Shown: positions 6,286 through 27,229 of the stretch, piece by piece
Position numbering within the stretch: position 1 is the first letter of the stretch
Layout: each line of letters opens with the position of its first letter
DNA from: a virus
Length of the DNA: 59,250 nt
IMG/VR virus record: IMGVR_UViG_3300010885_034940
Coordinates: 1 to 59,250 of that record
Reading direction: 5' to 3' (one strand)
Program-made: the position numbers and the translations under genes
The notes under the pieces: generated by a model
The model's database searches: none
What the model saw: only the letters and a program-made list of their open reading frames with translations
What the model was told of the DNA's origin: nothing

Positions 6286-6288
6286 TTT

Positions 6289-7854
6289 ATGAAGCTACAA
6301 AACTTCCCATCAGTTAATTATCCTAGTTTATTACAATGTTCAGAAAGAAGAACATTTATGGTAAACCAATTTGAGAAATATGGGATAACAAAATATAATT
6401 GCTTTATAACAGAAAAATTTGATAATATAAAAGATTCGTTTGTATTTAATTCTCCAATTTCTATAGAGCATGGACAACCAGGAATTATTATATCATTTCT
6501 TCATTTAATGAATGATTGGTACAATAAAAATGAAGAAGAATATGCAATATTTTGCGACGATGATATAAGCTTCAAAAGTATTGAACACTGGTCGTTCACT
6601 TGGAATGAATTTGTTGCTAATCTTCCAAATGATTGGGAGTGTGTGCAGTTAATCAGAATTAATGAATGGATTCCAAATACTTATTACAAGTATAATAAGG
6701 AAGAAAAACCAACATTAAAAATAAGAGAAAGAAATTGGGATGATTGGGGATCTTCTTTTATAGCAAAAAGAAGTTATATTAAAAAAATCTTAGATAGACA
6801 TTATGTTGATGGTAAAGTATTTAATTTAGCTATACCAGATTCTGATTGGGGTTGTTTATTTCCTATTATTGAACATTTATTGTTTAGAGGATTAGGTGCT
6901 GTTTATAACTTCCCATTATTAGTTGAAGAAACAAATTTGGTAAATACAAGTTCATTATCCATACTGTGCGATTCATTAGAAAACAGTAATAGTAATTTGA
7001 ATAACCAAAAAGTATTAAACAATATGCAAAGAATTAATTCAAGAAATTACTATCTTGAATTATGGGAAAGAGATGGAACATCATCTGATATCAGATACTT
7101 AATGAACAGAAATCCTCTTGCTGATATTCCTTCTATTAATGTTATTTCATTACATGAATGTGTGAATAGAAGATTTAAAGTTGTATCTAATTTACAAAAA
7201 TATAATTATAATAAACTCCGAATACATAATAATCATAGATATAGTAACAAATTAGGAATAAAAGTACACTGCCCACTAATAGAAGTTATGCATGATGCTG
7301 CTATGGGAGTAACAATATCCCATTTAAAATCTATAAAATATTGGTATGACAATACTGATGAACCGTATGCTGTTTTTGCTGAGGATGATATAAAAATAGA
7401 TATTTGTGATTATTGGGGATTTACGTTTGAAAAATTTATTTCATTATTACCACAAGATTGGGAAGCTGTACAGTTAATAAGAATTAAAAATTTCCATCTT
7501 GGTTATGATGGATCTGAGGGTCTTAATTTTAGAAAACGTGAGTGGAATGATTGGGGATGTGGTGCAGTGCTATTAACTAGAGACTATGCGAAAAAAATTA
7601 TAGATAGACATATAAAAGATGATACATTTATAATAGAAGTTGGCAACATACATCCTATGGTTGAAAATGTTATTTTTGCAAATTTAGGAACTGTCTATAA
7701 TTTTCCATTATTTGCAGAAGAAATAGAAGAAAATCCTAGGGATTTATGGGAAATTGAACGTGGAGTAAAAGAAGATCATAAATTATCAAGTAGACTGACT
7801 GTTGATCTTTGGAAACGTAATAGATTATCAATTGAACAAATTATTGGAAAATAA
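6289..7854 (+). CDS. tandem-duplicated GT25-like glycosyltransferase
   Basis: The 521-aa protein is two homologous halves (about 1-235 and 280-521). Each has an acidic, metal-binding type motif (CDDDI and AEDDI), a W-x-FT-x-E/K-FV/I region, LPxDWExVQLIRI, and an ExxWxDWG motif. This pattern belongs to the GT25 / LPS glycosyltransferase-like proteins common in T4-like marine and soil phages. Both copies keep the acidic motif, so both may be active. It follows nrdJ after 3 nt and starts the glycan cluster. Acceptor and sugar are unknown. Confidence 0.75.
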   Translation: MKLQNFPSVNYPSLLQCSERRTFMVNQFEKYGITKYNCFITEKFDNIKDSFVFNSPISIEHGQPGIIISFLHLMNDWYNKNEEEYAIFCDDDISFKSIEHWSFTWNEFVANLPNDWECVQLIRINEWIPNTYYKYNKEEKPTLKIRERNWDDWGSSFIAKRSYIKKILDRHYVDGKVFNLAIPDSDWGCLFPIIEHLLFRGLGAVYNFPLLVEETNLVNTSSLSILCDSLENSNSNLNNQKVLNNMQRINSRNYYLELWERDGTSSDIRYLMNRNPLADIPSINVISLHECVNRRFKVVSNLQKYNYNKLRIHNNHRYSNKLGIKVHCPLIEVMHDAAMGVTISHLKSIKYWYDNTDEPYAVFAEDDIKIDICDYWGFTFEKFISLLPQDWEAVQLIRIKNFHLGYDGSEGLNFRKREWNDWGCGAVLLTRDYAKKIIDRHIKDDTFIIEVGNIHPMVENVIFANLGTVYNFPLFAEEIEENPRDLWEIERGVKEDHKLSSRLTVDLWKRNRLSIEQIIGK

Positions 7855-8836: not shown

Positions 8837-10892
8837 ATTGACAGAAGAGATTAAAAAATATTCAGTCGAACCAGAAAACGCAGAAAAAAATTTCATTCTA
8901 GCGAATTTATACGATGGTATGGGGCAAACTGCCGCTGCTATCTCTTTTTATTTGAGAGCAGCTGAAAGAACTGAAGACCAAGACTTGATGTATGAGTGTA
9001 TGGTTAAGGTTGGCAATTGTTTTGACAAACAAGGAAATAGACATAATACTGTTCGTGGCATATATAAACATGCTATTAGATTACGTCCTGATAGACCAGA
9101 GGCGTATTATCTCTTAGCAAAGTTTGATAATTTCTATCAAAATCATGTTGATGCATATATTTTCTCAAATATTGCTTTAGAATCTTCAAACCTAGACTCA
9201 GTAAAACTCAGAACAGATGTTGGTTATGTTGGAAAATATGGTCTACTTTATGAGAAAGCAGTTTCTTCTTGGCTTTGGGGAAAAATTGAGGAGTGCTATA
9301 GTCTATTTTCAGATATAGTAAAAAATCACTGGAATTATTTGAATCCGTGGTATCAAACCTCAACAAAAAATTGTCTAAAGAATTATGGATTTCAAGATTT
9401 ATTAAATTTGATACAGCCAAGAAAAATAGTTGATTGCTTCACTTATTATGATGAAACTTGTAAGGAAATGTTATTACTGAGATATTTGATCATGAACGAT
9501 CACGTTGATCATTTTGTTGTATCAGAATCAAATAGAACACAAACTGGAAAGTTAATTCAAAGAAAACTACGACAAACACTAAAAGAACTCAATATACCAT
9601 CTGATAAATTTATATTTGCTGATGTTGATATACCCGATGATGACAATTTGCAAATTGAAGAAATAGATAAATTGAATTCTTATCAAAATCAAAACAATGA
9701 ATCATATAAAACAAGAGCAAGAGAAAGACTACAGAAAAATGGACTGCATCAAGTATTAGATCAATTTGATAACGATACGATTTTTATTGTCAGCGACTGT
9801 GATGAAATAATTGATGCTGTACGTCATTTGCCGAATGTTATTGACATTGTAAGTAAGAACAGAGATAGAGTTATAAAAATACCATTAGTGCATACTGAAG
9901 GTAGAGCTAATCTTAGAGTAATGAATACAACTAAGGTTACACCTAAACAGTGGGATGGTGCGATGTTTGTATGCACAAAAGAACATTTGTTAAAAGCAAC
10001 AGTTATTCAAATTAGATCAAACATTTATAATCCATATAATATTGCATATATTACTTATGAAGGTAAACGAATTGAAGATATGGGCTGGCATTTTTCTTGG
10101 ATGGGTGATGCTAATAGAAGAAAGAAAAAGCTTAGTGGATTTGTTCACTCAAACGAAAAACTAGATTTTCTTAAGACTAATAGTTATGACAGTAAAGAAA
10201 CATTAGAAAGAATGGAAATTGAGCCTAGGATTGGTGATATTTCTATTAGTTGCGAAGCAAATACTATTCTTGTTCCATATCCAGATGAAAAATTGCCAAA
10301 TATTATATTCCAAAACAAAATTTTAAATGATTTCTTCATTAATGGTATTAATTACGATAGCGAAGAAGATTATGTTTCTAAATTACTAGAAAATGAATAT
10401 CAAAATGCATGCAGTTCACAAACCGACATTTTCAAACATCTCCCAACACTACGCAACCTAGCTAAAGAATGCAATCATGTAACGGAAATGGGAGTGCGTA
10501 CTGGTCAATCAACAAGAGCGCTTTTAGTTGAACCAGTAATATTGCGGTCTTATGATCTATATTTGGACAATGATGTATCAAAACTATTTGAATTAGCAAG
10601 ATCAGCTGATAAAGATGTACAGTACATTCAAGCAGACACTTTAAAATTAGAAATAGAAGAAACAGATCTGTTGTTTATAGATACAGAACATACATATGAA
10701 CAACTTTCAGCAGAACTTGAATTACACCATAATAAGGCAAGAAAATATATTGCATTTCATGATACTGATAAACCATATGCTGAAGTATTACTTCCAGCAA
10801 TTATTGAATTTATGATTAAGCATCCAGAATGGGATTTCCATTATCATTCTAAGGAATGTCACGGATTTACTGTCATCAGAAGAAAACAATAA
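8829..10892 (+). CDS. TPR - GT17-like glycosyltransferase - SAM methyltransferase fusion
   Basis: Three parts are visible in 687 aa. Residues 1 to about 190 are TPR-like helical repeats. Residues about 200-470 match GT17 (N-acetylglucosaminyltransferase-like): IVDCFTYYDE, VSESNRTQTGK, IVSDCDEIID and GWHFSWMG. Residues about 535-687 are a class I methyltransferase with TEMGVRTGQSTRALL (SAM loop), LLFIDTEHTYEQ and FHDT. Such fusions make and cap glycans. It closes the glycan cluster and is followed by the structured RNA. Confidence 0.75.
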   Translation: MLELTEEIKKYSVEPENAEKNFILANLYDGMGQTAAAISFYLRAAERTEDQDLMYECMVKVGNCFDKQGNRHNTVRGIYKHAIRLRPDRPEAYYLLAKFDNFYQNHVDAYIFSNIALESSNLDSVKLRTDVGYVGKYGLLYEKAVSSWLWGKIEECYSLFSDIVKNHWNYLNPWYQTSTKNCLKNYGFQDLLNLIQPRKIVDCFTYYDETCKEMLLLRYLIMNDHVDHFVVSESNRTQTGKLIQRKLRQTLKELNIPSDKFIFADVDIPDDDNLQIEEIDKLNSYQNQNNESYKTRARERLQKNGLHQVLDQFDNDTIFIVSDCDEIIDAVRHLPNVIDIVSKNRDRVIKIPLVHTEGRANLRVMNTTKVTPKQWDGAMFVCTKEHLLKATVIQIRSNIYNPYNIAYITYEGKRIEDMGWHFSWMGDANRRKKKLSGFVHSNEKLDFLKTNSYDSKETLERMEIEPRIGDISISCEANTILVPYPDEKLPNIIFQNKILNDFFINGINYDSEEDYVSKLLENEYQNACSSQTDIFKHLPTLRNLAKECNHVTEMGVRTGQSTRALLVEPVILRSYDLYLDNDVSKLFELARSADKDVQYIQADTLKLEIEETDLLFIDTEHTYEQLSAELELHHNKARKYIAFHDTDKPYAEVLLPAIIEFMIKHPEWDFHYHSKECHGFTVIRRKQ

Positions 10893-10895
10893 ATA
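10888..10895 (+). promoter_or_regulatory. late-promoter-like AATAAATA
   Basis: AATAAATA overlaps the stop of the fusion gene and fits the relaxed NATAAATA late element described for T4-like cyanophages. It would start transcription around 10901, at the foot of the RNA stem. An 8-nt A/T-rich match is weak evidence on its own. Confidence 0.25.
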
Positions 10896-11038
10896 AAGAT
10901 GTCTGGCTTGATGCGCAAGCAGCAGTTGAGAGGAAGCTGGAGGGATTAATCCCGCACACCTAATGCAATTTCCGCCTCAGTGGTAAGGAGCCTGACTGGT
11001 TCACTGCGGCACCCTGATTGGACGATCCAATACATCTT
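10896..11038 (+). ncRNA. candidate structured RNA, branched, closed by a 7-bp stem
   Basis: This 143-nt non-coding stretch is clearly richer in G+C than its surroundings. AAGATGT (10896-10902) pairs perfectly with ACATCTT (11032-11038). Inside are GCTTG/CAAGC (10906-10920), TGAG-A-GGAA with TTCC-GC-CTCA (927-935 with 970-979 of the 10.9-kb block) enclosing GGGA-TTAA-TCCC, and ATTGGA-CGA-TCCAAT (11017-11031). The next gene's ribosome site (AAGGAG) follows at once. It may be a cis-regulatory leader or a small RNA. It does not match the cobalamin, glutamine/downstream-peptide, SAM or fluoride riboswitch motifs I could compare from memory. Confidence 0.6.
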
Positions 11039-11051
11039 ATAAGGAGTAACG

Positions 11052-11273
11052 ATGGCTGAGATAGAAAAAGAGGCAAGTTGTACAAACTGTGGTTCAGTCT
11101 ACAGATTAATGTATGACACTGATTCAGTTAGTTATGAAGCAGATAATTGCCCATTTTGTGGAGACCTTATCAACGGATATGATAATGACTTTGACTTCAA
11201 ATCAGAAGAAGAAGATATGAACATGGATGATTGGAACTACGAAGATAGTGACGATGATTTTCGTAGGAATTGA
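11052..11273 (+). CDS. small acidic zinc-ribbon protein
   Basis: The 73-aa protein has two CxxC knuckles (CTNC and CPFC) about 23 residues apart and a very acidic tail rich in Asp and Glu. It probably binds zinc; the tail could mimic DNA or bind a basic partner. A good ribosome site (AAGGAG) follows the structured RNA. It overlaps the RuvC-like gene by 20 nt. Confidence 0.75.
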   Translation: MAEIEKEASCTNCGSVYRLMYDTDSVSYEADNCPFCGDLINGYDNDFDFKSEEEDMNMDDWNYEDSDDDFRRN

Positions 11274-15598: not shown

Positions 15599-15682
15599 GC
15601 GAGTGTGGTGGAATTGGTATACACATCAGACTTAAAATCTGCCGCCTATGGCATGTGGGTTCGAGTCCCACCACTCGCACCA
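15599..15682 (+). tRNA. tRNA-Leu (anticodon UAA)
   Basis: The acceptor GCGAGTG pairs with CACTCGC, the anticodon loop is CTTAAAA, there is a long class II variable arm, a T-arm GTGGG-TTCGAGT-CCCAC, and CCA is encoded. It reads UUA, and UUG by wobble. Confidence 0.95.
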
Positions 15683-15711
15683 GTTTCTGGGCGCATAGCT
15701 CATTATTTTCT

Positions 15712-15978
15712 ATGAATAAAGAACAAGAACTATTAGTTGTTTTGACAGAAGAATGCGGTGAAGTCATTCAAGCTTCTTCTAAGATTCTTAGGTTTGGATT
15801 GAACTCTAAGAATCCTTATAGCAATAAGAACAACAAAGAACAGCTAGAACAAGAGCTCGGCGATCTTATGTGTCTTATTAGAGCCCTAACAGAGAACGGT
15901 ACTATAGATCTTGATAGTGTCTTAGCTGCAGCTGAGAAAAAGAGAAAAAAGCTTGAAAAATACCTTAAAAATCAATAA
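15712..15978 (+). CDS. MazG-like nucleotide pyrophosphohydrolase
   Basis: The 88-aa protein has the MazG-type motif EECGEVIQASSK (ExxxE) and the second acidic motif QELGDLMCLI (ExxD), the metal ligands of all-alpha NTP pyrophosphatases. Phage MazG-like enzymes may adjust dNTP pools or (p)ppGpp. The ATG at 15712 is chosen; the upstream in-frame ATG at 15655 lies inside the tRNA gene. Confidence 0.75.
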   Translation: MNKEQELLVVLTEECGEVIQASSKILRFGLNSKNPYSNKNNKEQLEQELGDLMCLIRALTENGTIDLDSVLAAAEKKRKKLEKYLKNQ

Positions 15979-15984
15979 GTTGCG

Positions 15985-16043
15985 TAAGTTATTGATTCTA
16001 TTAGAGTTTTTGCTATTGTCTTTTTTGAGCGTTCAGGCATAAT
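15985..16043 (+). promoter_or_regulatory. boxed promoter 2 (A/T box + TTGTCT-N16-CATAAT)
   Basis: The box AAGTTATTGATTCTATTAGA (from 15986) precedes TTGTCT (16016-16021), a 16-nt spacer and CATAAT (16038-16043). ATGATG begins at 16050, 7 nt after the -10, opening the leader ORF at 16050-16076. Confidence 0.7.
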
Positions 16044-16049
16044 GATACT

Positions 16050-16076
16050 ATGATGAATGAACGAGGTAATGTCTGA
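16050..16076 (+). CDS. leaderless 8-codon leader ORF (MMNERGNV)
   Basis: An ATG at the predicted transcription start opens 8 codons ending in TGA at 16074-16076, which overlaps the ATG of the AAA+ gene (TGATG). A GAGG inside it lies 11 nt before that ATG. Termination there could couple translation to the AAA+ gene. The same layout occurs at 22166. Confidence 0.4.
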   Translation: MMNERGNV

Positions 16077-16924
16077 TGCCGCGTGGTGTACCCAAGGCTG
16101 GTTTTCGTAAGACGCGCAAGAGCAAGGCTTCTGTGCAGAACGTGCGCGTCGTGCGCCAGGTAGTCTCTAATGAGACTGATGCGCAGATCCGCGCCAAGCT
16201 TGACGAGCGTTTCAGTGCGCTTGAACTCATGACCGAGTGTGCCGTGAACGGCGACGCTAAGGCAGTTGTGATCTCTGGTCCTGCTGGTCTTGGCAAGTCC
16301 TTCGGCGTCACTAAGGTACTGGATGAACGCCAGCCGTTTCACACGGTCGTTCGTGGATACGTCCGCGCCACTGGCTTGTACAAGACTCTGTATGAATATC
16401 GTGCTCCCGGTTCCGTTGTTGTGTTCGACGACGCCGACAGCATCTTCGCTGACGACGTTTCGCTGAATCTGCTCAAGGCAGCGTGCGATACCACTAAGCG
16501 CCGCGTCTTGTCTTGGCTCACCGAGTCTAAGATGGAAGATGAAGAAGGCGAGCGTCTGCCGCGATCCTTCGAGTTCGAGGGAACTGTGATCTTCATCACC
16601 AACTATGACTTCGACCAGCTGATCGAACGTGGTAGTCGTCTCGCGCCGCACTTCCAGGCGCTGATCTCCCGGTCGATGTATCTCGACATGGCGATGAAGA
16701 CGAACCGCGATTACATGATCCGAATCAAGCAGGTTGTCGAGCAGGGTATGCTTGAAGAACACAAGCTTGGTAAGAGCAACGAAAACGCGATCGTTGCCTT
16801 TATCGAAAAGAATCAGGATCGGATGCGCGAGCTGTCGCTGCGTATGGTCGTGAAGATCGCTGCGCTGGTTAAGTCCCACCCGACTAAGTGGGAATCGCTG
16901 GCTCGAATCGTTTGCTGTAAGTAA
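16076..16924 (+). CDS. AAA+ family ATPase
   Basis: The 282-aa protein has Walker A GPAGLGKS (residues 68-75), Walker B VVVFDDADS (about 114-122), and a sensor-1-like VIFITNYDFDQL. The first 25 residues are strongly basic (RKTRKSK), suggesting DNA contact. AAA+ proteins remodel DNA or protein complexes; the partner is unknown. The coding sequence is much richer in G+C than the surrounding DNA and uses C/G-ending codons. It lies behind a boxed promoter and a leader ORF, so early expression is likely. Confidence 0.8.
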   Translation: MPRGVPKAGFRKTRKSKASVQNVRVVRQVVSNETDAQIRAKLDERFSALELMTECAVNGDAKAVVISGPAGLGKSFGVTKVLDERQPFHTVVRGYVRATGLYKTLYEYRAPGSVVVFDDADSIFADDVSLNLLKAACDTTKRRVLSWLTESKMEDEEGERLPRSFEFEGTVIFITNYDFDQLIERGSRLAPHFQALISRSMYLDMAMKTNRDYMIRIKQVVEQGMLEEHKLGKSNENAIVAFIEKNQDRMRELSLRMVVKIAALVKSHPTKWESLARIVCCK

Positions 16925-16939
16925 TAAGAGGAAAAGGTA

Positions 16940-17278
16940 ATGCGTAAGATTATTGCAACAATGGTGTGTCTTGCTACGGCAGTCACAGCAAGAGCGGAAG
17001 ATGGTCCAGGACTTTGGAACTGCGAAGGACCAAAGGTTCCCTCAAACGAATTCAAGTTTACTCTTGTTGCTAACAAGACAAACTATATGATGTTTGACAA
17101 TCTTGGACAGTTTGTACAGGAAGGCACGTTTGAAGTAAAAGAGGCGAACGGTATTCTGTATGGTCTGACTATGATTCGTGGCAAGTTTGCTCTTGCTGTT
17201 TCACGAAAAGACGATAAGACAATGCTCGCGAGTATTGCTTTCTCTGATGATCTTGTTGTTGATTATATTTGCAAGTAA
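16940..17278 (+). CDS. small exported protein
   Basis: The 112-aa protein begins with a signal peptide (MRKIIATMVCLATAVTARA, cleavage before EDGP). The mature part is beta-rich, with two Cys (WNCEG and DYICK) at its ends that could form a disulphide. It looks like a periplasmic protein. It follows the AAA+ gene after 15 nt with ribosome site AGAGGAAAAGG. Confidence 0.65.
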   Translation: MRKIIATMVCLATAVTARAEDGPGLWNCEGPKVPSNEFKFTLVANKTNYMMFDNLGQFVQEGTFEVKEANGILYGLTMIRGKFALAVSRKDDKTMLASIAFSDDLVVDYICK

Positions 17279-17292
17279 GAAGGAATTGATGC

Positions 17293-17529
17293 ATGAAAAT
17301 TTTGCAACAGGCTGTAGAAAATTTCTTTTCTGAAGTAAAGAGTGATAAGATTCCGAAGTGCTTCAATAGCGTAAAGGAATACGATACTTGGATTGCGCAC
17401 GAACACATCGCTCATACTGAGCCGCGTCAGTTTCCCTGCCGAGACTGTACTAAGGAATACCAGAGTAGGATGGTCGCCGAGGCGCGTTGCTACATACCCA
17501 TGGTTCGCGTCGAGCGTATTACTAAGTAA
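17293..17529 (+). CDS. small Cys-rich hypothetical protein
   Basis: A 78-aa protein with a possible zinc knuckle (CRDCTKEYQSRM followed by ARC) and an amphipathic N-terminus. No family named. It is last in the unit begun by boxed promoter 2. Confidence 0.6.
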   Translation: MKILQQAVENFFSEVKSDKIPKCFNSVKEYDTWIAHEHIAHTEPRQFPCRDCTKEYQSRMVAEARCYIPMVRVERITK

Positions 17530-17665
17530 CTGGCTCTGCTGTGGCTGCGGATTAGGCACAGTGCAGGGAGCCCTCTGAGCGTCTTTTACAGCGTACAAGG
17601 GTCAGGGTAGCGGGTCAGGGTAGGGACGCCCAGAAGCGTCCCTGGGACGTCCTGGGAGGCTCTGC
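17530..17665 (+). other. G+C-rich intergenic region with repeats and hairpins
   Basis: This 136-nt stretch has no convincing gene. It holds a tandem repeat GGGTCAGGGTAG (17599-17610 and 17612-17623), a strong hairpin GGGACGC/GCGTCCC (17623-17642), the palindrome GGACGTCC just after it, and a direct repeat GGCTCTGCT near both ends. No T-run follows the hairpin, so it is not a standard terminator. A small RNA or a protein-binding region is possible. Confidence 0.5.
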
Positions 17666-17761
17666 TAAGTTATTGATTTTATTAGAGTTTTTAGTGTATA
17701 CGCAAGTTATTGATTTTATTAGAGTTTTTTCTATTGCGTTTTTCTTGGTTTCAGGCATTAT
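17666..17761 (+). promoter_or_regulatory. boxed promoter 3 with two boxes (TTGCGT-N16-CATTAT)
   Basis: Two near-perfect copies of AAGTTATTGATTTTATTAGA start at 17667 and 17704. They are followed by TTGCGT (17734-17739), a 16-nt spacer and CATTAT (17756-17761). The ATG at 17768 is 7 nt after the -10, so a leaderless mRNA is predicted. Confidence 0.68.
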
Positions 17762-17767
17762 ATACTT

Positions 17768-17974
17768 ATGAAAACGAAAACTGATATGAACAAGCAACTT
17801 CATTGGATTAAGACCAAGGTGGACAAGAACGGCAATCGGCTGATTCTTTGGCACACGGGCAACTATGAATACCAGATCGACGTCGCGAACGGTGATTCGT
17901 TCTCGACGGCTCTCAAGATCGACGGCGACTGCGAAGAAGCCATCGCTCTCTTGGAATCTCTGGCAGTTCTGTAA
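17768..17974 (+). CDS. small hypothetical protein, leaderless
   Basis: A 68-aa soluble protein (KTKVDKNGNRLILWHTGNYE), with an acidic end. Third codon positions are G/C-rich. There is no ribosome site; the start codon coincides with the predicted transcription start of boxed promoter 3. Function unknown, probably early. Confidence 0.6.
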   Translation: MKTKTDMNKQLHWIKTKVDKNGNRLILWHTGNYEYQIDVANGDSFSTALKIDGDCEEAIALLESLAVL

Positions 17975-18008
17975 GGCACGGTTGCCACTCTGTTTGAGGT
18001 GTATTGAA

Positions 18009-18176
18009 ATGAATATGGTAGAATATCCGCATGTGTTCAGGATTTGGAAACAAACCACTTCCAGCGTCGGTCGTTCGCGTTATGTGAACTGTGTCAGCAA
18101 AGCTGCATATGACAAACTTGCGCGTGAGTATAAGTCGCTGAAAACGGAACTGGATTTGCTGAAGAGGAAGCAATAA
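18009..18176 (+). CDS. small hypothetical protein
   Basis: A 55-aa basic protein (VEYPHVFRIWKQTTSSVGRS) with a short C-terminal coiled-coil-like segment (YKSLKTELDLLKRKQ). Its TAA overlaps the next ATG (TAATG). Function unknown. Confidence 0.55.
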   Translation: MNMVEYPHVFRIWKQTTSSVGRSRYVNCVSKAAYDKLAREYKSLKTELDLLKRKQ

Positions 18177-18370
18177 TGAACGATCGAGTTGAGTCTCAAT
18201 TGACGTGGGTCTCGCAGCGCCTGTCTAGCACAGGTTATTTCTTGGGTCTGGAGATTGATTCCAAGAGCGTAAAGGCAACTGATCTTTATATGGTCGCTGC
18301 CGAGCTGGAAGACTTTGTTGCAAGCTTGCTGATGGCAGCGAGCCAGCTTGAAGAAAGCAAGGTAAACTGA
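18176..18370 (+). CDS. small hypothetical protein
   Basis: A 64-aa helical protein with an acidic second half (VAAELEDFVASLLMAASQLE). It is translationally coupled to the previous gene. No family recognised. Confidence 0.55.
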   Translation: MNDRVESQLTWVSQRLSSTGYFLGLEIDSKSVKATDLYMVAAELEDFVASLLMAASQLEESKVN

Positions 18371-18371
18371 G

Positions 18372-18497
18372 ATGGAAGAAATGAAGGAGACGCTCAATCT
18401 TATGAGTTGGGAAACTGAGGTTCAGATTCTGATGTCGATCATTGGGTTCTGCTTGGGATTCTTGATAGGGATATATATAATGGCATACCTTGAGTGA
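18372..18497 (+). CDS. 41-aa single-pass membrane peptide
   Basis: The peptide begins MEEMKETLNLMSWETEVQIL and has one hydrophobic span, SIIGFCLGFLIGIYIMAYL. It starts 1 nt after the preceding stop, behind AAGG. A small inner-membrane protein with an acidic cytoplasmic N-terminus is predicted. Confidence 0.5.
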   Translation: MEEMKETLNLMSWETEVQILMSIIGFCLGFLIGIYIMAYLE

Positions 18498-18588
18498 TTC
18501 GCCACTCCCATGATTATGGTAGGGACAATATTCTAAGTCCCCGAGCTGCAAATAAACCCATCCGCAGCGAAAAGAGCGAAACTTTGAA

Positions 18589-18665
18589 CGGACATTAGCT
18601 CAGCCTGGTAGAGCATCTGCTTTGGGAGCAGAGGGTCGTAGGTTCGAATCCTACATGTCCGACCA
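18589..18665 (+). tRNA. tRNA-Pro (anticodon UGG)
   Basis: CGGACAT pairs with ATGTCCG, the anticodon loop is TTTGGGA, the T-arm is GTAGG-TTCGAAT-CCTAC, and CCA is encoded. First of the main tRNA cluster. Confidence 0.95.
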
Positions 18666-18673
18666 GTATGTGA

Positions 18674-18748
18674 GGGGGATTAGTGCTAATGGGAACACGC
18701 TGCGTTTGCATCGCAGAGTTGAGAGTTCGATTCTCTCATCCTCCACCA
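18674..18748 (+). tRNA. tRNA-Ala (anticodon UGC)
   Basis: GGGGGAT pairs with ATCCTCC with one G-U. The anticodon arm is CTGCG-TTTGCAT-CGCAG and CCA is encoded. The D-arm is weak (about 3 bp). Confidence 0.88.
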
Positions 18749-18756
18749 CGTCGCAA

Positions 18757-18840
18757 GCCTCGGTGGCGTAATGGCAGCCGCGCTGGATTTAGGTTCCAGT
18801 GGAGTAATCCGTGTCAGTTCGAATCTGACCCGAGGCACCA
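18757..18840 (+). tRNA. tRNA-Leu (anticodon UAG)
   Basis: The acceptor is GCCTCGG/CCGAGGC and the anticodon arm CTGGA-TTTAGGT-TCCAG. It has a class II variable arm and an encoded CCA. It reads CUA. Confidence 0.94.
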
Positions 18841-18883
18841 TTTTGGAGCGTTCGTCTAGGTGCGAATGCTTCCTCACCCACCA
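18841..18883 (+). pseudogene. truncated tRNA-Glu relic
   Basis: The 18-mer TTTTGGAGCGTTCGTCTA is identical to the start of the intact tRNA-Glu at 18960-18977, including its spacer. The rest is lost and it ends in CCCACCA. The remaining 39 nt cannot fold as a tRNA. It is a deletion remnant of a duplicated tRNA-Glu. Confidence 0.6.
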
Positions 18884-18885
18884 GA

Positions 18886-18959
18886 GCCTTGTTAGTTTAA
18901 TGGTAGAACTCTGCTTTTACACGGCAGCTACGGCAGTTCGATTCTGTCACAAGGCACCA
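18886..18959 (+). tRNA. tRNA-Val (anticodon UAC)
   Basis: GCCTTGT pairs with ACAAGGC. The anticodon arm is CTGCT-TTTACAC-GGCAG and CCA is encoded. Confidence 0.92.
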
Positions 18960-18963
18960 TTTT

Positions 18964-19038
18964 GGAGCGTTCGTCTATCGGCTAGGACACCACCCTTTCA
19001 CGGTGGGAAGAGGGGTTCGATTCCCCTACGCTCTGCCA
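18964..19038 (+). tRNA. tRNA-Glu (anticodon UUC)
   Basis: GGAGCGT pairs with ACGCTCT. The anticodon arm is CCACC-CTTTCAC-GGTGG, the discriminator is G, and CCA is encoded. Confidence 0.94.
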
Positions 19039-19042
19039 GTTT

Positions 19043-19116
19043 TGAGGGATCGTCTAATGGTAGGACGACGGACTTTGAATCCGTCTATCTAGGTTCGAAT
19101 CCTAGTCCCTCAGCCA
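19043..19116 (+). tRNA. tRNA-Gln (anticodon UUG)
   Basis: TGAGGGA pairs with TCCCTCA. The anticodon arm is ACGGA-CTTTGAA-TCCGT, the discriminator is G, and CCA is encoded. Confidence 0.94.
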
Positions 19117-19154
19117 CGCTATATATTTTGCTGTTAACATCTTAGGAGATTCTT

Positions 19155-19292
19155 ATGAATAAATATGAATGCGAAGTTTGTAAGCATATCCATGACGAAG
19201 AAGTACATGGTAAATTTGAAGATTTGCCAAAGTATGCAAACTGCCCAAAATGTGGCAGCGATGCGCGTGAAGTTTACAAAGAAATAGTATAA
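19155..19292 (+). CDS. rubredoxin-like small protein
   Basis: The 45-aa protein has YECEVCKHIHDEE, then FEDLPKYANCPKCGSD. The two CxxC knuckles and the FEDLP segment between them are the features of rubredoxin, whose four Cys hold one iron. It could also be a structural zinc ribbon. The ribosome site TAGGAG precedes the ATG. It sits inside the tRNA cluster. Confidence 0.7.
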   Translation: MNKYECEVCKHIHDEEVHGKFEDLPKYANCPKCGSDAREVYKEIV

Positions 19293-19300
19293 ATTGAAAT

Positions 19301-19388
19301 GGAAGTGTGGGAGAGTGGTTTAATCCGTCGGTCTTGAAAGCTGAAGAGTGTAAAAGCTCCGTGAGTTCAAATCTCACCACTTCCGCCA
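19301..19388 (+). tRNA. tRNA-Ser (anticodon UGA)
   Basis: GGAAGTG pairs with CACTTCC, the anticodon loop is CTTGAAA, there is a class II variable arm, the discriminator is G, and CCA is encoded. It reads UCA. Confidence 0.94.
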
Positions 19389-19393
19389 AATTT

Positions 19394-19470
19394 GGGACAG
19401 TAGCTCAGTTGGTTAGAGCAAACGGTTGATAACCGTTAGGTCGAAGGTTCAAGTCCTTCCTGTCCCACCA
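19394..19470 (+). tRNA. tRNA-Ile (anticodon GAU)
   Basis: GGGACAG pairs with CTGTCCC. The anticodon arm is AACGG-TTGATAA-CCGTT and CCA is encoded. It is the only tRNA in the window without U at the wobble position. Confidence 0.95.
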
Positions 19471-19477
19471 TTTTCAT

Positions 19478-19506
19478 TTTACTTTTTAATTGTAGTAATA
19501 TATAAT
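19478..19506 (+). promoter_or_regulatory. promoter TTTACT-N17-TATAAT within the tRNA cluster
   Basis: TTTACT (19478-19483) and TATAAT (19501-19506) are 17 nt apart, immediately before the UAU tRNA. It would drive the downstream tRNAs separately from the upstream ones. Confidence 0.6.
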
Positions 19507-19514
19507 TATATAAT

Positions 19515-19608
19515 GCTCCTGTAGTTTAACGGTAAAACACCTGTCTTATACACAGGCTTGGCGCCAGATTAGCGCATGATATAGGTTCGAGTCCTATCGG
19601 GAGCACCA
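19515..19608 (+). tRNA. tRNA with UAU anticodon and long variable arm (Ile by codon)
   Basis: GCTCCTG pairs with CGGGAGC, the D-arm is GTTT/AAAC, the anticodon arm is CCTGT-CTTATAC-ACAGG and the T-arm ATAGG-TTCGAGT-CCTAT, with CCA encoded. The anticodon UAU reads AUA. Between anticodon and T stems lie 24 nt containing GCGC/GCGC, a class II-like variable arm that is not expected for tRNA-Ile. The amino acid it carries cannot be settled from sequence alone. Confidence 0.8.
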
Positions 19609-19614
19609 GATTTT

Positions 19615-19688
19615 GCGGAGTTGTCATAGTGGTTGTGATCTAGCCTTCCAAGTTAGCTACATGGGTTCGATTCCCATACTCCGCTCCA
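19615..19688 (+). tRNA. tRNA-Gly (anticodon UCC)
   Basis: GCGGAGT pairs with ACTCCGC. The anticodon arm is CTAGC-CTTCCAA-GTTAG, the discriminator is U, and CCA is encoded. Confidence 0.93.
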
Positions 19689-19692
19689 ATTT

Positions 19693-19769
19693 GTCCCCAT
19701 AGCTCAGTTGGATAGAGCAACAGCCTTCTAAGCTGTGGGTCAGAGGTTCGAATCCTCTTGGGGGCGCCA
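19693..19769 (+). tRNA. tRNA-Arg (anticodon UCU)
   Basis: GTCCCCA pairs with TGGGGGC, the anticodon loop is CTTCTAA, and CCA is encoded. It reads AGA, a codon rare in G+C-rich hosts. Confidence 0.93.
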
Positions 19770-19782
19770 ATAAGGTTATTCA

Positions 19783-20232
19783 ATGAAGATTGAAGACAAA
19801 GATTTGATTCGTCATCACTCCATTGAATATCCAATGGAGCTTGGTGCTCCAAAGTTTGAACCAATTCAGATTCAAGAGAAAAAGGATCTGATGATTAATG
19901 TTGCAAGATCAGCTGCAAGAAAAGAGTATGATCGTATAATGGAATTGGTTCATGTACTACAGAAACAAGCAAACGAGTTAATGAGAAGAATGGAAATTAC
20001 AGAAATCATTCATCAAGCTGAGCATAAATTTGCTCCGATTGTTGGTAAGACCTATTGGCTTATTAACAACAAAATGACTAATAAATATGAACTTGTTAAG
20101 TCAGGACCAAATGATTGGAGTGCAGGGCATCCCGATCATTATGAATACTTCGCAGAAGTGCGCTGTCTTGGCGATCAGACTTGGGAAGAAGTTAGCCCGT
20201 ATAGCACAGCTGGTAGTGCACCTGATTTGTAA
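19783..20232 (+). CDS. DUF2452-like protein whose 3' end overlaps tRNA-Thr
   Basis: The 149-aa protein contains FAPIVGKTYWLI, then GPNDWSAGHPDHYEYFAEVR and LGDQTWEE. I recognise this pattern as the uncharacterised DUF2452 family. The first 75 residues are helical. Its stop lies inside the tRNA-Thr gene, so the last 12 residues are encoded by tRNA sequence (38-nt overlap). Function unknown. Confidence 0.7.
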   Translation: MKIEDKDLIRHHSIEYPMELGAPKFEPIQIQEKKDLMINVARSAARKEYDRIMELVHVLQKQANELMRRMEITEIIHQAEHKFAPIVGKTYWLINNKMTNKYELVKSGPNDWSAGHPDHYEYFAEVRCLGDQTWEEVSPYSTAGSAPDL

Positions 20233-20270
20233 TCAGGGGGTCGGGAGTTCGAATCTCTCTGCGGGCACCA
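20195..20270 (+). tRNA. tRNA-Thr (anticodon UGU)
   Basis: GCCCGTA pairs with TGCGGGC with one G-U. The anticodon arm is CCTGA-TTTGTAA-TCAGG and CCA is encoded. The 5' half lies inside the preceding coding gene. Confidence 0.94.
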
Positions 20271-20285
20271 TTTTGGAAAGGTGAC

Positions 20286-20423
20286 ATGGCAACAAAAAAT
20301 GACATAACTGGCGATTCAATTGCATCAAAGCACAAGAACCAGAAACTCTATGAGAAGAACTGGGACAAGATTTTTGGTAAGAAGCTAAATAGGGAAGTGA
20401 AACCCAAGAAGCAAAAGAAATGA
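20286..20423 (+). CDS. small conserved phage protein
   Basis: The 45-aa protein begins MATKNDITGDSIASKHKNQK and continues YEKNWDKIFGKK. This pattern (TGD-x-I-x-SK ... Y-x-x-N-x-DxIFGKK) is widespread in tailed phages without known function. It overlaps the next gene by ATGA. Confidence 0.75.
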   Translation: MATKNDITGDSIASKHKNQKLYEKNWDKIFGKKLNREVKPKKQKK

Positions 20424-20728
20424 AAAAGTTAATATTCTTGACTCTACTTTTGTTCACGCTACCAGCACAAGCTGCATTATACACACTAAACTGGACTGCG
20501 CCAACTGAATACGAAAACGGATATCCGTTGGATTATGGCGATATCTCTTATTACAAGATTTACTACAAGACCAGAATTTCATCAAATTATAAGCTGCTAT
20601 CAAGAACAACTAATAATCAAAACACATTTTTGTTTAATCTGCCAAAAGGACAAAGATACTATTTTGTTGTTACGGCAGTTGATTTGTTCGGGTTCGAATC
20701 GCAATACAGTAATCAAGTTATTAGATAA
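20420..20728 (+). CDS. exported fibronectin type III-like protein A
   Basis: The 102-aa protein has a signal peptide (MKKLIFLTLLLFTLPAQA) and then a single FnIII-like domain: LNWTAPTEYENG, YYKIYYKT, YYFVVTAVDLFGFES. It is predicted to be periplasmic or surface-exposed, with a carbohydrate or protein binding role inferred. A paralogue follows after 10 nt. Confidence 0.72.
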   Translation: MKKLIFLTLLLFTLPAQAALYTLNWTAPTEYENGYPLDYGDISYYKIYYKTRISSNYKLLSRTTNNQNTFLFNLPKGQRYYFVVTAVDLFGFESQYSNQVIR

Positions 20729-20738
20729 GGGGAAATAA

Positions 20739-21107
20739 ATGAAGAAGTTATTAATCGCTGCAGCTCTGCTTTTGGTTTCATTCTCAGCAATGAGCCAAAC
20801 AGCACCAAATATCACATTGTCTTGGACAGCACCAACTCTTTATGAAGATGGTACACCAATCCTAGCTGGTGATATTATTGGTTATAAGATCTATTATGGA
20901 ACAACAGCTGGCGGACCATATCCTACAGTAATCTCAGTTCCTGCTGGTATTCTAAATGCTAACATCAGTACACAGACACTTGCTCGCGGAACATATTATT
21001 TCGTAGCAACAACGCTAACTGCTAATGGACTAGAATCAGTATATAGTGGTGAAGTCTCTAAGGTAGTTGCTCCAGCATCCAAGCCAAAGCCACCAGTGTT
21101 GAAGTAA
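20739..21107 (+). CDS. exported fibronectin type III-like protein B
   Basis: The 122-aa protein has a signal peptide (MKKLLIAAALLLVSFSAMS) and an FnIII-like domain with LSWTAPTLYEDG, IGYKIYYGT and YYFVATTLTANGLES. It is clearly a diverged tandem duplicate of the preceding gene. The Pro/Lys-rich tail is extra. Confidence 0.72.
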   Translation: MKKLLIAAALLLVSFSAMSQTAPNITLSWTAPTLYEDGTPILAGDIIGYKIYYGTTAGGPYPTVISVPAGILNANISTQTLARGTYYFVATTLTANGLESVYSGEVSKVVAPASKPKPPVLK

Positions 21108-21123
21108 TTTATACATAACCCAG

Positions 21124-21147
21124 CCTCTCCAGTTTAGGCTGGAGAGG
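21124..21147 (+). promoter_or_regulatory. 9-bp perfect hairpin before the HNH gene
   Basis: CCTCTCCAG and CTGGAGAGG flank the 6-nt loop TTTAGG. No T-run follows, so it is not a standard terminator. The HNH ribosome site AGGTG lies 4 nt downstream, so the hairpin may affect mRNA stability or translation. Confidence 0.5.
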
Positions 21148-21159
21148 TTCAGGTGATAT

Positions 21160-21729
21160 ATGTCATATGTTTTGATCACAGATAGTGCTGGTACTCCGCG
21201 TGAGTGGGCGGATCTTGAATCAGCTTGTTGTTATTACGCGAAGAAAAAGGTGCTGTGGGAAATTGGTTCTCCAATGAAGGAATTCGTTGGTGGAATCAAT
21301 AACAGGGGCGAGCAATCAAGAATAGTTATTAGTTCAATTCTTGGCGTCACTGGTCCTATATTCTCCAAAACTTTTAAGGAGAAAGAAACACAAACACCCG
21401 AGCGTGTCATTCTGTACGCTCGCGACCAGCATGTTTGTGCCTACTGTGGTGATGTGTTCAACTTTCGAGAATTGACAATTGATCACATCATTGCAAAGTC
21501 TCGTGGTGGGAAACACAACTGGATGAATACTGTTACAGCATGTAAATCATGTAACCAACGTAAGGGCGATCGTACGCCTGAAGAAGCAAAGATGCATTTG
21601 CTTTATGTGCCATATGTTCCTACTAGGTTTGAAAAGATCTTTTTAGCCAATAAGAAGATTCTAGCAGACCAGATGGAATTCCTGATGGCAAAAATACCAA
21701 AAACGTCTCGAGTCTGGAATAGGTCATAA
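21160..21729 (+). CDS. HNH endonuclease
   Basis: The 189-aa protein has a complete HNH domain: CAYCGDVF, then ELTIDHIIAKSRGGKHNWMNTV, then ACKSCNQRKGDRTPEEA. Two CxxC pairs hold structural zinc and the central His is catalytic. It resembles the McrA/HNH group seen as free-standing phage nucleases. Homing or genome processing roles are both possible. Confidence 0.85.
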   Translation: MSYVLITDSAGTPREWADLESACCYYAKKKVLWEIGSPMKEFVGGINNRGEQSRIVISSILGVTGPIFSKTFKEKETQTPERVILYARDQHVCAYCGDVFNFRELTIDHIIAKSRGGKHNWMNTVTACKSCNQRKGDRTPEEAKMHLLYVPYVPTRFEKIFLANKKILADQMEFLMAKIPKTSRVWNRS

Positions 21730-21742
21730 AGGGATAATTGTT

Positions 21743-22066
21743 ATGTCATTTGGAATATTTGTTCTTGTTATATTAGCAGTTTATGTTTACGTCAGAATCA
21801 AGTACCCTGATCATTTTTCTGGTTCTGACAATGGCTATGAATATCGTTCTTCTGAAAACGATTATGAGTCCAAACAAGAAGAAAGCGAACATTATGAATT
21901 GCTGCAAATGTATAAAGGTAAGCATTACTGGTATGGGATCGGAACATACAGCAGCGAGTCTTCTGCGGAACAGGCAGGTATTTGGGTCGCTGAGCGTCAC
22001 CCAGAGCACCGATATAAAGTCGTAAGAGTCCGTGGAGATAGGAAATCCGCCGTCTGGTTGTCCTAA
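21743..22066 (+). CDS. N-terminally membrane-anchored small protein
   Basis: The 107-aa protein has one N-terminal membrane segment (FGIFVLVILAVYVYVRI), an acidic Ser/Tyr-rich linker and a C-terminal YWYGIGTYSSESSAEQAG domain of unknown type. Its TAA is the start of a boxed promoter. Confidence 0.6.
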   Translation: MSFGIFVLVILAVYVYVRIKYPDHFSGSDNGYEYRSSENDYESKQEESEHYELLQMYKGKHYWYGIGTYSSESSAEQAGIWVAERHPEHRYKVVRVRGDRKSAVWLS

Positions 22067-22159
22067 GTTATTGATTTTATTAGAGTTTTCACCTTCCTCC
22101 TAAGTTATTGATTTTATTAGAGTTTTTTCTATTGCCTTTTCATACAGTTTAAGTATAAT
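22064..22159 (+). promoter_or_regulatory. boxed promoter 4 with two boxes (TTGCCT-N16-TATAAT)
   Basis: Two exact copies of AAGTTATTGATTTTATTAGA start at 22065 and 22102. They precede TTGCCT (22132-22137), a 16-nt spacer and TATAAT (22154-22159). ATGATG begins at 22166, 7 nt after the -10. Confidence 0.72.
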
Positions 22160-22165
22160 GATACT

Positions 22166-22192
22166 ATGATGAATGAGGAGAGATATTCGTGA
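22166..22192 (+). CDS. leaderless 8-codon leader ORF (MMNEERYS)
   Basis: An ATG at the predicted transcription start opens 8 codons ending in TGA at 22190-22192, overlapping the GTG start of the next gene (GTGA). GAGGAG lies within it. The layout and first residues (MMNE) match the leader ORF at 16050. Confidence 0.4.
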   Translation: MMNEERYS

Positions 22193-22407
22193 GTAATTTG
22201 GGCGGTCATTGGAATATGGAAGGTATGCGCGTCTGGGGGATCTACCTTGACAAATTCAGTGTCATGGGCATGGTTGAGTTGTCTCGCGTTACCTATGGTG
22301 GTGAGGTTCAGCACCACGTCGCGCTGCTCGCACCGATCGAGGTGTATGGTGCCGTGCGTGATCGCGTTATCCTGAATCATGATAAAATTCTGCAGGTTTG
22401 GAGCTGA
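22189..22407 (+). CDS. small hypothetical protein, GTG start
   Basis: The 72-aa protein (MSNLGGHWNMEGMRVWGIYL) uses GTG, overlapping the stop of the leader ORF. It is G+C-rich compared with later genes. Beta-rich by eye; no family recognised. Confidence 0.6.
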   Translation: MSNLGGHWNMEGMRVWGIYLDKFSVMGMVELSRVTYGGEVQHHVALLAPIEVYGAVRDRVILNHDKILQVWS

Positions 22408-22409
22408 TC

Positions 22410-22676
22410 ATGTCGTATAATGGTTGGTCGAATTACGAGACTTGGCGCGTCTATCTCGAGTGCGTCGATGGTATGACGTTGGACGATTTGGTGCTGTTCA
22501 ACGATGGCCAAGCTAGGATTCAGGATATCCTCGAGAATATGTGCGACGAAATAATTCTCGAGGATCTTCAGGGAATCGCTCTTGATCTTGCTCGCTCATT
22601 TCTTTCTAAAGTTAACTGGCGAGAGATCGCTGATCATATGATCAATGAAGAATTCTCCGAAGAGGAAGAATGTTAA
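22410..22676 (+). CDS. small conserved phage protein (NGWSNYETW type)
   Basis: The 88-aa acidic protein starts MSYNGWSNYETWRVYLE. The NGWxNYETW motif is common in small proteins of phages and plasmids with no established function. The ATG at 22410 is preferred to 22398 because the motif then lies at the very N-terminus as usual. Confidence 0.7.
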   Translation: MSYNGWSNYETWRVYLECVDGMTLDDLVLFNDGQARIQDILENMCDEIILEDLQGIALDLARSFLSKVNWREIADHMINEEFSEEEEC

Positions 22677-22700
22677 TTGCTTACAAGCAATTGACTATAT

Positions 22701-22775
22701 GGGATCGTAGCTCAGTGGTAGAGCAGTTGGCTTTTAACCAATTGGTCCAGGGTTCGAATCCCTGCGGTCCCACCA
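22701..22775 (+). tRNA. tRNA-Lys (anticodon UUU)
   Basis: GGGATCG pairs with CGGTCCC with G-U/wobble positions. The anticodon arm holds loop CTTTTAA, the T-arm is CAGGG-TTCGAAT-CCCTG, and CCA is encoded. Confidence 0.94.
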
Positions 22776-26411: not shown

Positions 26412-26906
26412 ATGCATAAACATCATATAATACCGAAGTATATGGGCGGAAGCGATGATCCTTCTAACTTAATAGACCTGAGTGTAGAAGAACACGCCGA
26501 AGCCCATAAAAGATTATTTGAAGAGCACGGTCATTGGCAAGACTATCTCGCTTGGCAAGGACTATCCAAGATGATTCCGAGAGATGAATTGATACGTCAA
26601 GTTCAGTCTGAAGCAGCCAAAGAAAGATTGAAGAGGTTAGGAAATCCATTTACTGGAACACAAACCCAAGGAAATTTTGCCATTAATGAAGAGTTTAGGA
26701 AACAAGTTGCTTCATTGGCTCAAACTGATGAAGCAAAAGCGAAACGAAAACAAACATTTAAAAATATCAAGCACCAAAGTGGAGAGAAAAATTCAAACTT
26801 TGGTAAAAAGTGGATATATAATCAAGAGTTAAAAATTTCTAAATGTATTCCGAAGTCAGAAGAAATTTCAGATGGTTGGAGTGTAGGTAGAAAGTTGATA
26901 TGGTAG
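26412..26906 (+). CDS. HNH homing endonuclease
   Basis: The 164-aa protein begins MHKHHIIPKYMGGSDDPSNL and continues IDLSVEEHAEAHKRLFE, a compact HNH/treble-clef nuclease core. The C-terminus (NFGKKWIYNQELKISKCIPK ... GWSVGRKL) is the small DNA-binding repeat typical of phage homing endonucleases. It has its own late-type promoter and AAGGAG, and its stop lies at the 5' edge of the tmRNA acceptor piece. Confidence 0.82.
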   Translation: MHKHHIIPKYMGGSDDPSNLIDLSVEEHAEAHKRLFEEHGHWQDYLAWQGLSKMIPRDELIRQVQSEAAKERLKRLGNPFTGTQTQGNFAINEEFRKQVASLAQTDEAKAKRKQTFKNIKHQSGEKNSNFGKKWIYNQELKISKCIPKSEEISDGWSVGRKLIW

Positions 26907-26908
26907 TA

Positions 26909-27229
26909 TGAGGAAATCGTAAAAACGGCAAGACGGGGTTTCGATACCCCCAGCTCCACCAAAAGCATATTGCGTTGCCCTGAAATAGCAACGGTAAACA
27001 ACTGAAAAAGGATTAGGTTGTTCCTTGCAGTATGCTTTTGATGGGGCTGACAGGTTTCGATTGGCGTATAATAGGAAGACTGACTACCCGAGAGGCGACT
27101 GACGCAATCAGCGCAAAAAAAGTAAACGCAAACGATGATGTTTACGACATGGCACTAGCCGCCTAATAGCGGTGTAGAATTCCAGAGTTTTCGCGTGAGT
27201 GGGTTTCCTTGGTAACAGAATAAACCCAC
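26909..27229 (+). ncRNA. ssrA: circularly permuted tmRNA (two-piece ssrA)
   Basis: The acceptor piece comes first: a T-arm with GTTTCGATA and CAGCTCC-A-CCA ending at 26961. After an 81-nt spacer comes the 5' acceptor strand GGGGCTG (27043-27049), which pairs with CAGCTCC with one G-U. The resume codon GCA at 27128 opens the tag ANDDVYDMALAA, stopping at TAA (27164-27166). The spacer is a three-way junction: AAAAGCATATTGC pairs with GCAGTATGCTTTT, enclosing two 6-bp hairpins. The outer ends are approximate. Permuted tmRNAs are known in alphaproteobacteria; this one would tag stalled proteins for proteolysis. Confidence 0.9.

Follow-up and report, generated by a model that had tools for sequence, protein, structure and literature searches.

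On comparative sequence evidence, which we regard as decisive, positions 10896-11038 of the analysed window (the whole stretch of viral DNA, 59,250 nucleotides in length) specify a structured noncoding RNA. The fold of this RNA, which some tailed phages carry and which has at least five helical arms, is conserved, it contains long invariant unpaired segments, and its position is independent of any one gene. In our reading it is probably a separate noncoding RNA gene of phages, present in single copy and acting in trans. The initial annotation had placed an unidentified conserved branched RNA in this interval, and this description stands: all Rfam families score below their gathering thresholds there and the covariation is strong.

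The features on which that annotation was built, namely the interval itself, a perfect 7-bp closing stem, internal hairpins, a local rise in G+C and the lack of a coding frame, have all been confirmed. Indeed, the G+C content of the interval amounts to 51%, against about 34% around it, and the two strands of the closing stem P1 pair exactly. The folding energy is, on the other hand, ordinary: −42.5 kcal/mol compared with a shuffled mean of −40.7 kcal/mol (z −0.49), equally stable folds being obtained by single-sequence folding in 65 of 200 shuffles. A lone sequence would thus prove nothing, and the case depends on comparison. This non-significant energy is what speaks for a chance fold of a functionless G+C-rich remnant, an explanation whose probability we take to be negligible, as it is refuted by the covariation and by the conservation across unrelated gene contexts described below.

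Within the fold, P1 closes the RNA and the four arms of the junction are P2, P3 with a nested P4, P5 and P6 (Table 1). The long-range helix P3a/P3b had been missed in the initial annotation; this arm, in which the hairpin P4 and two conserved segments, GAAnCUGGA and CUAAnGCA, are located, is followed by P5, then by CUGCGGCACCC and then by P6. The P5 arm is dispensable, since it is missing from one member (L313). Two further pairings have been considered and rejected: a GCA/UGC mini-hairpin predicted by single-sequence folding (10954-10966), which contains mismatches in several homologues and shows no compensatory change, and a GCAGCAG/CUGCGGC pairing, dropped because L146, L161, L223 and L312 alter its first strand without compensation.

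Table 1. Features of the RNA element and other features of the window.
Feature	Positions	Strand	Remarks
TPR/glycosyltransferase-17-like gene (Pfam), 687 aa, upstream of the RNA	stop at 10892		
AATAAATA, T4-late-promoter-like octamer, 5' edge	10888..10895	+	overlaps the upstream stop codon; putative promoter role
Structured noncoding RNA, whole element	10896..11038	+	158.5 bits, E 2e-45 to covariance model R2 (R2 includes this element)
P1, 5' strand (closing stem), AAGAUGU	10896..10902	+	changes on both sides in 5 of 7 pairs, sequence-only alignment
P2 hairpin, GCUUG-AUGCG-CAAGC	10906..10920	+	conserved loop RUGCG; 100% paired (11 sequences); 3 of 5 pairs covary
P3a, 5' strand (long-range helix)	10925..10930	+	3 of 6 pairs covary
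P3b, 5' strand, GGAA	10932..10935	+	GGAA/UUCC versus AGAA/UUCU
Conserved segment GAAgCUGGA	10933..10941	+	within one search pattern, hence partly selected
P4 hairpin, GGGA-UUAA-UCCC	10942..10953	+	100% paired; 3 of 4 pairs covary; loop length differs among homologues
Conserved segment CUAAUGCA (CURAKGCA)	10960..10967	+	sequence comparison of members
P3b, 3' strand, UUCC	10970..10973	+	hand-made structural alignment
P3a, 3' strand	10976..10981	+	sequence-only alignment
P5 hairpin, GAGCC-UGACU-GGUUC	10988..11002	+	5 of 5 pairs covary
Unpaired core CUGCGGCACCC	11004..11014	+	invariant, identical in 11 of 11 members
P6 hairpin, AUUGG-ACGAU-CCAAU	11017..11031	+	abuts P1; 4 of 5 pairs covary
P1, 3' strand, ACAUCUU	11032..11038	+	sequence-only alignment
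AAGGAG	11041..11046		
Zinc-ribbon-like gene, 73 aa, downstream neighbour	11052..11273 (ATG 11052)	+	judged to lie outside the RNA unit
tRNA genes, fourteen	15599..22775	+	one at 15.6 kb, others at 18.6-22.8 kb
Permuted (two-piece) tmRNA	26902..27166	+	RF04321, 128.8 bits; not reported by ARAGORN

The evidence for this fold comes from an alignment of 11 sequences built with MAFFT from sequence alone (A7). For the six helices P1, P2, P3a, P4, P5 and P6, 94.8% of the cells pair, and compensatory changes on both sides are found in 23 of the 32 pairs, a count reached by none of 500 shuffles. Cells with a change on both sides amount to 81 (28.6 when shuffled) and the covariation score is 0.632 (0.235 when shuffled), while in a control in which the partners were slid by 1-3 columns pairing drops to 37-48%. 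Compensatory changes, which the initial annotation had put forward as a check, occur in each of these six helices, and also in the seventh, P3b, when analysed in a hand-made structural alignment. There, 375 of 381 cells pair, a figure which is descriptive and not independent, as this alignment was fitted to the fold. In respect to conservation, 37 of the 73 unpaired gap-free columns are invariant, compared with 15 of the 61 paired ones. The search patterns contained parts of GAAnCUGGA, of CUAAnGCA and of the 3' core, so that the invariance of these segments is partly selected; CUGCGGCACCC is identical also in L007, L008, L010, L012, L312 and L313, all of which were found without using it.

The first copies were sought in contigs that code for a protein related to the RuvC-like neighbour; the five found (L007, L008, L010, L011 and L012; nhmmer E 4e-19 to 4e-12) have conserved loops and changed stems when aligned. 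A covariance model of five copies (R1) was then run on contigs collected with three DNA patterns, and sequences outside its training set score 68-135 bits: 135 for L141 and L187, 116 for L146, 115 for L161 and L198, 109 for L223, 90 for L312 and 68 for L313. Besides the window's own, ten copies are known from contigs of uncultivated phages. They belong to about eight phages that are distinct, so that with the phage of the window the carriers are about nine; near-duplicates are counted once, as are L008, L010, L011 and L012, which are 92-97% alike. Every full-length positive record that was searched whole has one match to the RNA.

No homologue was detected by blastn with the copies of the window, L010, L312 and L313 against 50,697 phage GenBank records (INPHARED), and R2 found none in 17 cultured phages, including T4, Mosig, HTVC008M, Melnitz, S-PM2 and P-SSM2. 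A pattern scan of bacterial genome contigs gave 67 matches, none of which scores with R1, and R2 gave chance-level matches only in 240 class relatives of a Rhodospirillaceae MAG and in 250 order relatives of a Bordetella genome. The majority of the matches to the P2 pattern and to the 3'-core pattern are due to chance and fall in coding sequence. Three contigs of one Sumerlaeia MAG (SKW40; L230, L247 and L282) match the three-part genome pattern and have no R1 or R2 score, being possibly an unrelated repeat. An intergenic element in two other contigs (L062, 9621-9690, and L057, minus strand) has the 5' module of the RNA only, its common part being CUGGC-hairpin-GCAGCAGGUUGA..GAAACUG (32 bits, E 4e-7). 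This is possibly a shortened or recombined family member, and it was excluded from the counts because the 5' module alone matches and because a pattern for this module was what first retrieved it.

The surroundings of the copies bear directly on what the RNA may do. The next gene encodes a zinc ribbon in the window, L008, L010 and L012, a protein of 105-119 aa with no assigned function in L007, L141 and L198, a 2OG oxygenase in L146, and a small lipoprotein-like protein in L223, where a nonspecific endonuclease gene lies on the other side; in L312 a tRNA-Glu gene directly follows the RNA and a 96-aa ORF is found on its other side, and in L313 the RNA sits in a noncoding gap. This variety does not support the proposal of the initial annotation that the RNA could be a riboswitch-like leader of the zinc-ribbon gene. 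It also weighs against any cis-regulatory leader, that is, a riboswitch or protein-binding structure which folds at the 5' end of an mRNA and controls downstream translation or transcription. Most copies in the RuvC neighbourhood would suit such a role, as they lie on the same strand upstream of zinc-ribbon/RuvC genes and right before a ribosome-binding site, and a multi-arm junction with conserved joining segments is aptamer-like. In the window, AAGGAG indeed adjoins the RNA, as annotated, although the gap is of 2 nt and not 3. However, the start codon lies at varying distances from P1 among copies, and by inspection no alternative pairing with the ribosome-binding site is conserved, and we therefore regard a leader as unlikely in general. 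All copies but those of L312 and L313 are followed by a same-strand gene with its start codon near, so that a cis role may exist in some phages. As to the neighbour itself, the zinc-ribbon-like protein of the window is small and acidic, has no match in Pfam or PHROG and has homologues in L007, L010, L141 and L146; its gene adjoins that of a RuvC-like resolvase.

The carriers are also diverse. The phages of the window (baseplate genes) and of L223 (T4-type DNA polymerase, UvsX) are T4-like, as is that of L312 on the basis of one gene only (phrog_114 DNA ligase), whereas the L313 phage is non-T4-like, its phrog_38 large terminase and DNA-ejection protein pointing to a different phage lineage. 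In turn, the RNA is absent from five close relatives that share the gene order (L002-L006), L002 having 11 nt at the site where L007 carries it, and also from the cultured relatives Mosig, HTVC008M and Melnitz. The differing neighbours, together with this absence from close and cultured relatives, indicate a self-contained RNA gene that is gained and lost, and not a dedicated leader; and since the copies lie between unrelated genes and one of them within a tRNA array, the RNA probably acts by itself and is not a switch of the next gene. In agreement with this, the free small RNA that the initial annotation had offered as another option fits the varied downstream context better than a leader does. 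In the L223 contig we have also observed (5193-6705) a CsgG (curli pore) gene followed by that of a repetitive curlin-like protein, an arrangement described for Melnitz-like phages.

That option had been linked to the late-type octamer AATAAATA at the 5' edge. Its core, ATAAATA, is rare, with 10 occurrences in the window against 28.5 expected and at least as many in all of 100 dinucleotide shuffles, and by inspection other genes begin shortly after three of the ten sites (13546, 26383 and 34478, the last on the minus strand). These results suggest that the core is avoided in the window except where used, and AATAAATA would fit a restricted T4-type late promoter without proving one. A+T-rich sequence precedes P1 in all homologues, the octamer itself not being conserved; a U-run follows P1 in L008, L010 and L012 only, and no terminator or processing site is common to all members.

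The L312 copy brings the RNA close to tRNA genes, the piece of contig on which it lies carrying 17 of them, and two further explanations have been weighed in this respect. In the first, the RNA would be a self-cleaving or RNA-processing ribozyme, with a role like that of the HDV-like theta ribozymes (PMC10879173), which we find quite improbable. The conserved unpaired core, the compact closed fold and the tRNA gene adjoining the L312 copy are in its favour, but no Rfam ribozyme model (HDV-like, hammerhead, twister and others) matches the element, both strands of P1 flank it and no cleavage site is apparent. By inspection the HDV strand order is also unfit, the interval between P3b and P4 being too small for P3/L3 and a returning P1 strand. 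In the second, the RNA would be a tRNA-like mimic that engages tRNA-handling enzymes or tRNA-targeting defence nucleases, P1 corresponding to the acceptor, P2 to the D arm, P3 to the anticodon arm, P5 to the variable arm and P6 to a T arm stacked on P1. The order of the arms and the abutment of P6 on P1 are indeed reminiscent of tRNAs whose variable arm is long, and the L312 copy, placed in a tRNA array, has CCA after its P1. Yet this CCA is not conserved, T-loop and D-loop motifs are absent, the P6 loop has 5 nt in nearly all members, and neither ARAGORN nor the Rfam models (RF00005 and those for tmRNA) report a tRNA or tmRNA at the element, so that we consider a mimic very unlikely. The permuted tmRNA of the window has counterparts in L331 (the record of L312), in G022 (a record of 197 kb that carries the RNA), in G011 and in Mosig; two-piece tmRNAs have already been published for Melnitz-like phages (PMC9004378).

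If the RNA is a trans-acting gene product, as we favour, it would be transcribed from a late region or together with tRNAs, and shortened to about 140 nt around P1. It would then act by presenting to a partner its invariant joining segments, namely CUGCGGCACCC, GAAnCUGGA and CUAAnGCA. The conserved segments have no complementarity to E. coli 16S or 23S rRNA, to the tRNAs of the window or to its tmRNA, and in the contigs searched the only occurrences of the complement of CUGCGGCACCC are on the opposite strand of the RNA itself. Base pairing to rRNA, tRNA or tmRNA being unsupported, a protein or a ribonucleoprotein is the likelier guess, and the RNA may serve as its scaffold or decoy. It is probably accessory cargo in the manner of phage tRNAs, gained and lost among close relatives and common to unrelated lineages. 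A bolder reading, which we hold only tentatively and with the balance against it, is that of a new, horizontally spread functional RNA class whose core binds, mimics or catalyses in a way unlike any known RNA class; an example would be the capture, in the infected cell, of a host factor for translation or defence. It is rare for a compact noncoding RNA to be conserved across unrelated phage lineages, and we know of no function yet for the phage RNAs of this kind (GOLLD, ROOL, T4 RNA C and RNA D). With about 140 nt, a well-determined fold, three short invariant segments and a history of gain and loss, the present RNA is convenient for pull-down, structural and deletion work, and the covariance model and list of members make the family searchable.

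Comparison with known classes started from Rfam, proposed as a check in the initial annotation: no family of Rfam 15 reaches its gathering score in 10896-11038, a permissive search of four members gave no weak match in common, and no family matches the RNA at eight loci, including L146 and the record of L312. No description of this RNA was found by title and abstract in the open-access literature. GOLLD and ROOL are structured phage and prophage noncoding RNAs of unknown function, often located near tRNA islands (PMC12286853), a setting shared by the L312 copy; however, they are several hundred nucleotides long and self-assemble into cages, while the RNA described here has about 140 nt, no sequence or Rfam match to them, and no match at the element to their covariance models. 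Melnitz-like T4-like marine phages have a glutamine (glnA-type) riboswitch along with the two-piece tmRNA (PMC9004378), but its sequence is another one and Rfam finds no glnA motif in the RNA of the window. The theta ribozymes are likewise small phage RNAs that adjoin tRNA genes (PMC10879173), differing by inspection in strand order and giving no match. RNA C and RNA D of T4 (species 1 and 2) are, according to annotation, small stable RNAs of 139 and 119 nt beside phage tRNA genes; their sequences look unrelated to the present one, and there is no match of R1 or R2 in the T4 tRNA region nor of R2 in the whole T4 genome. The RNA family is therefore new, whereas its kind is known, that of the orphan structured phage RNAs to which GOLLD, ROOL and T4 RNA C and RNA D belong.
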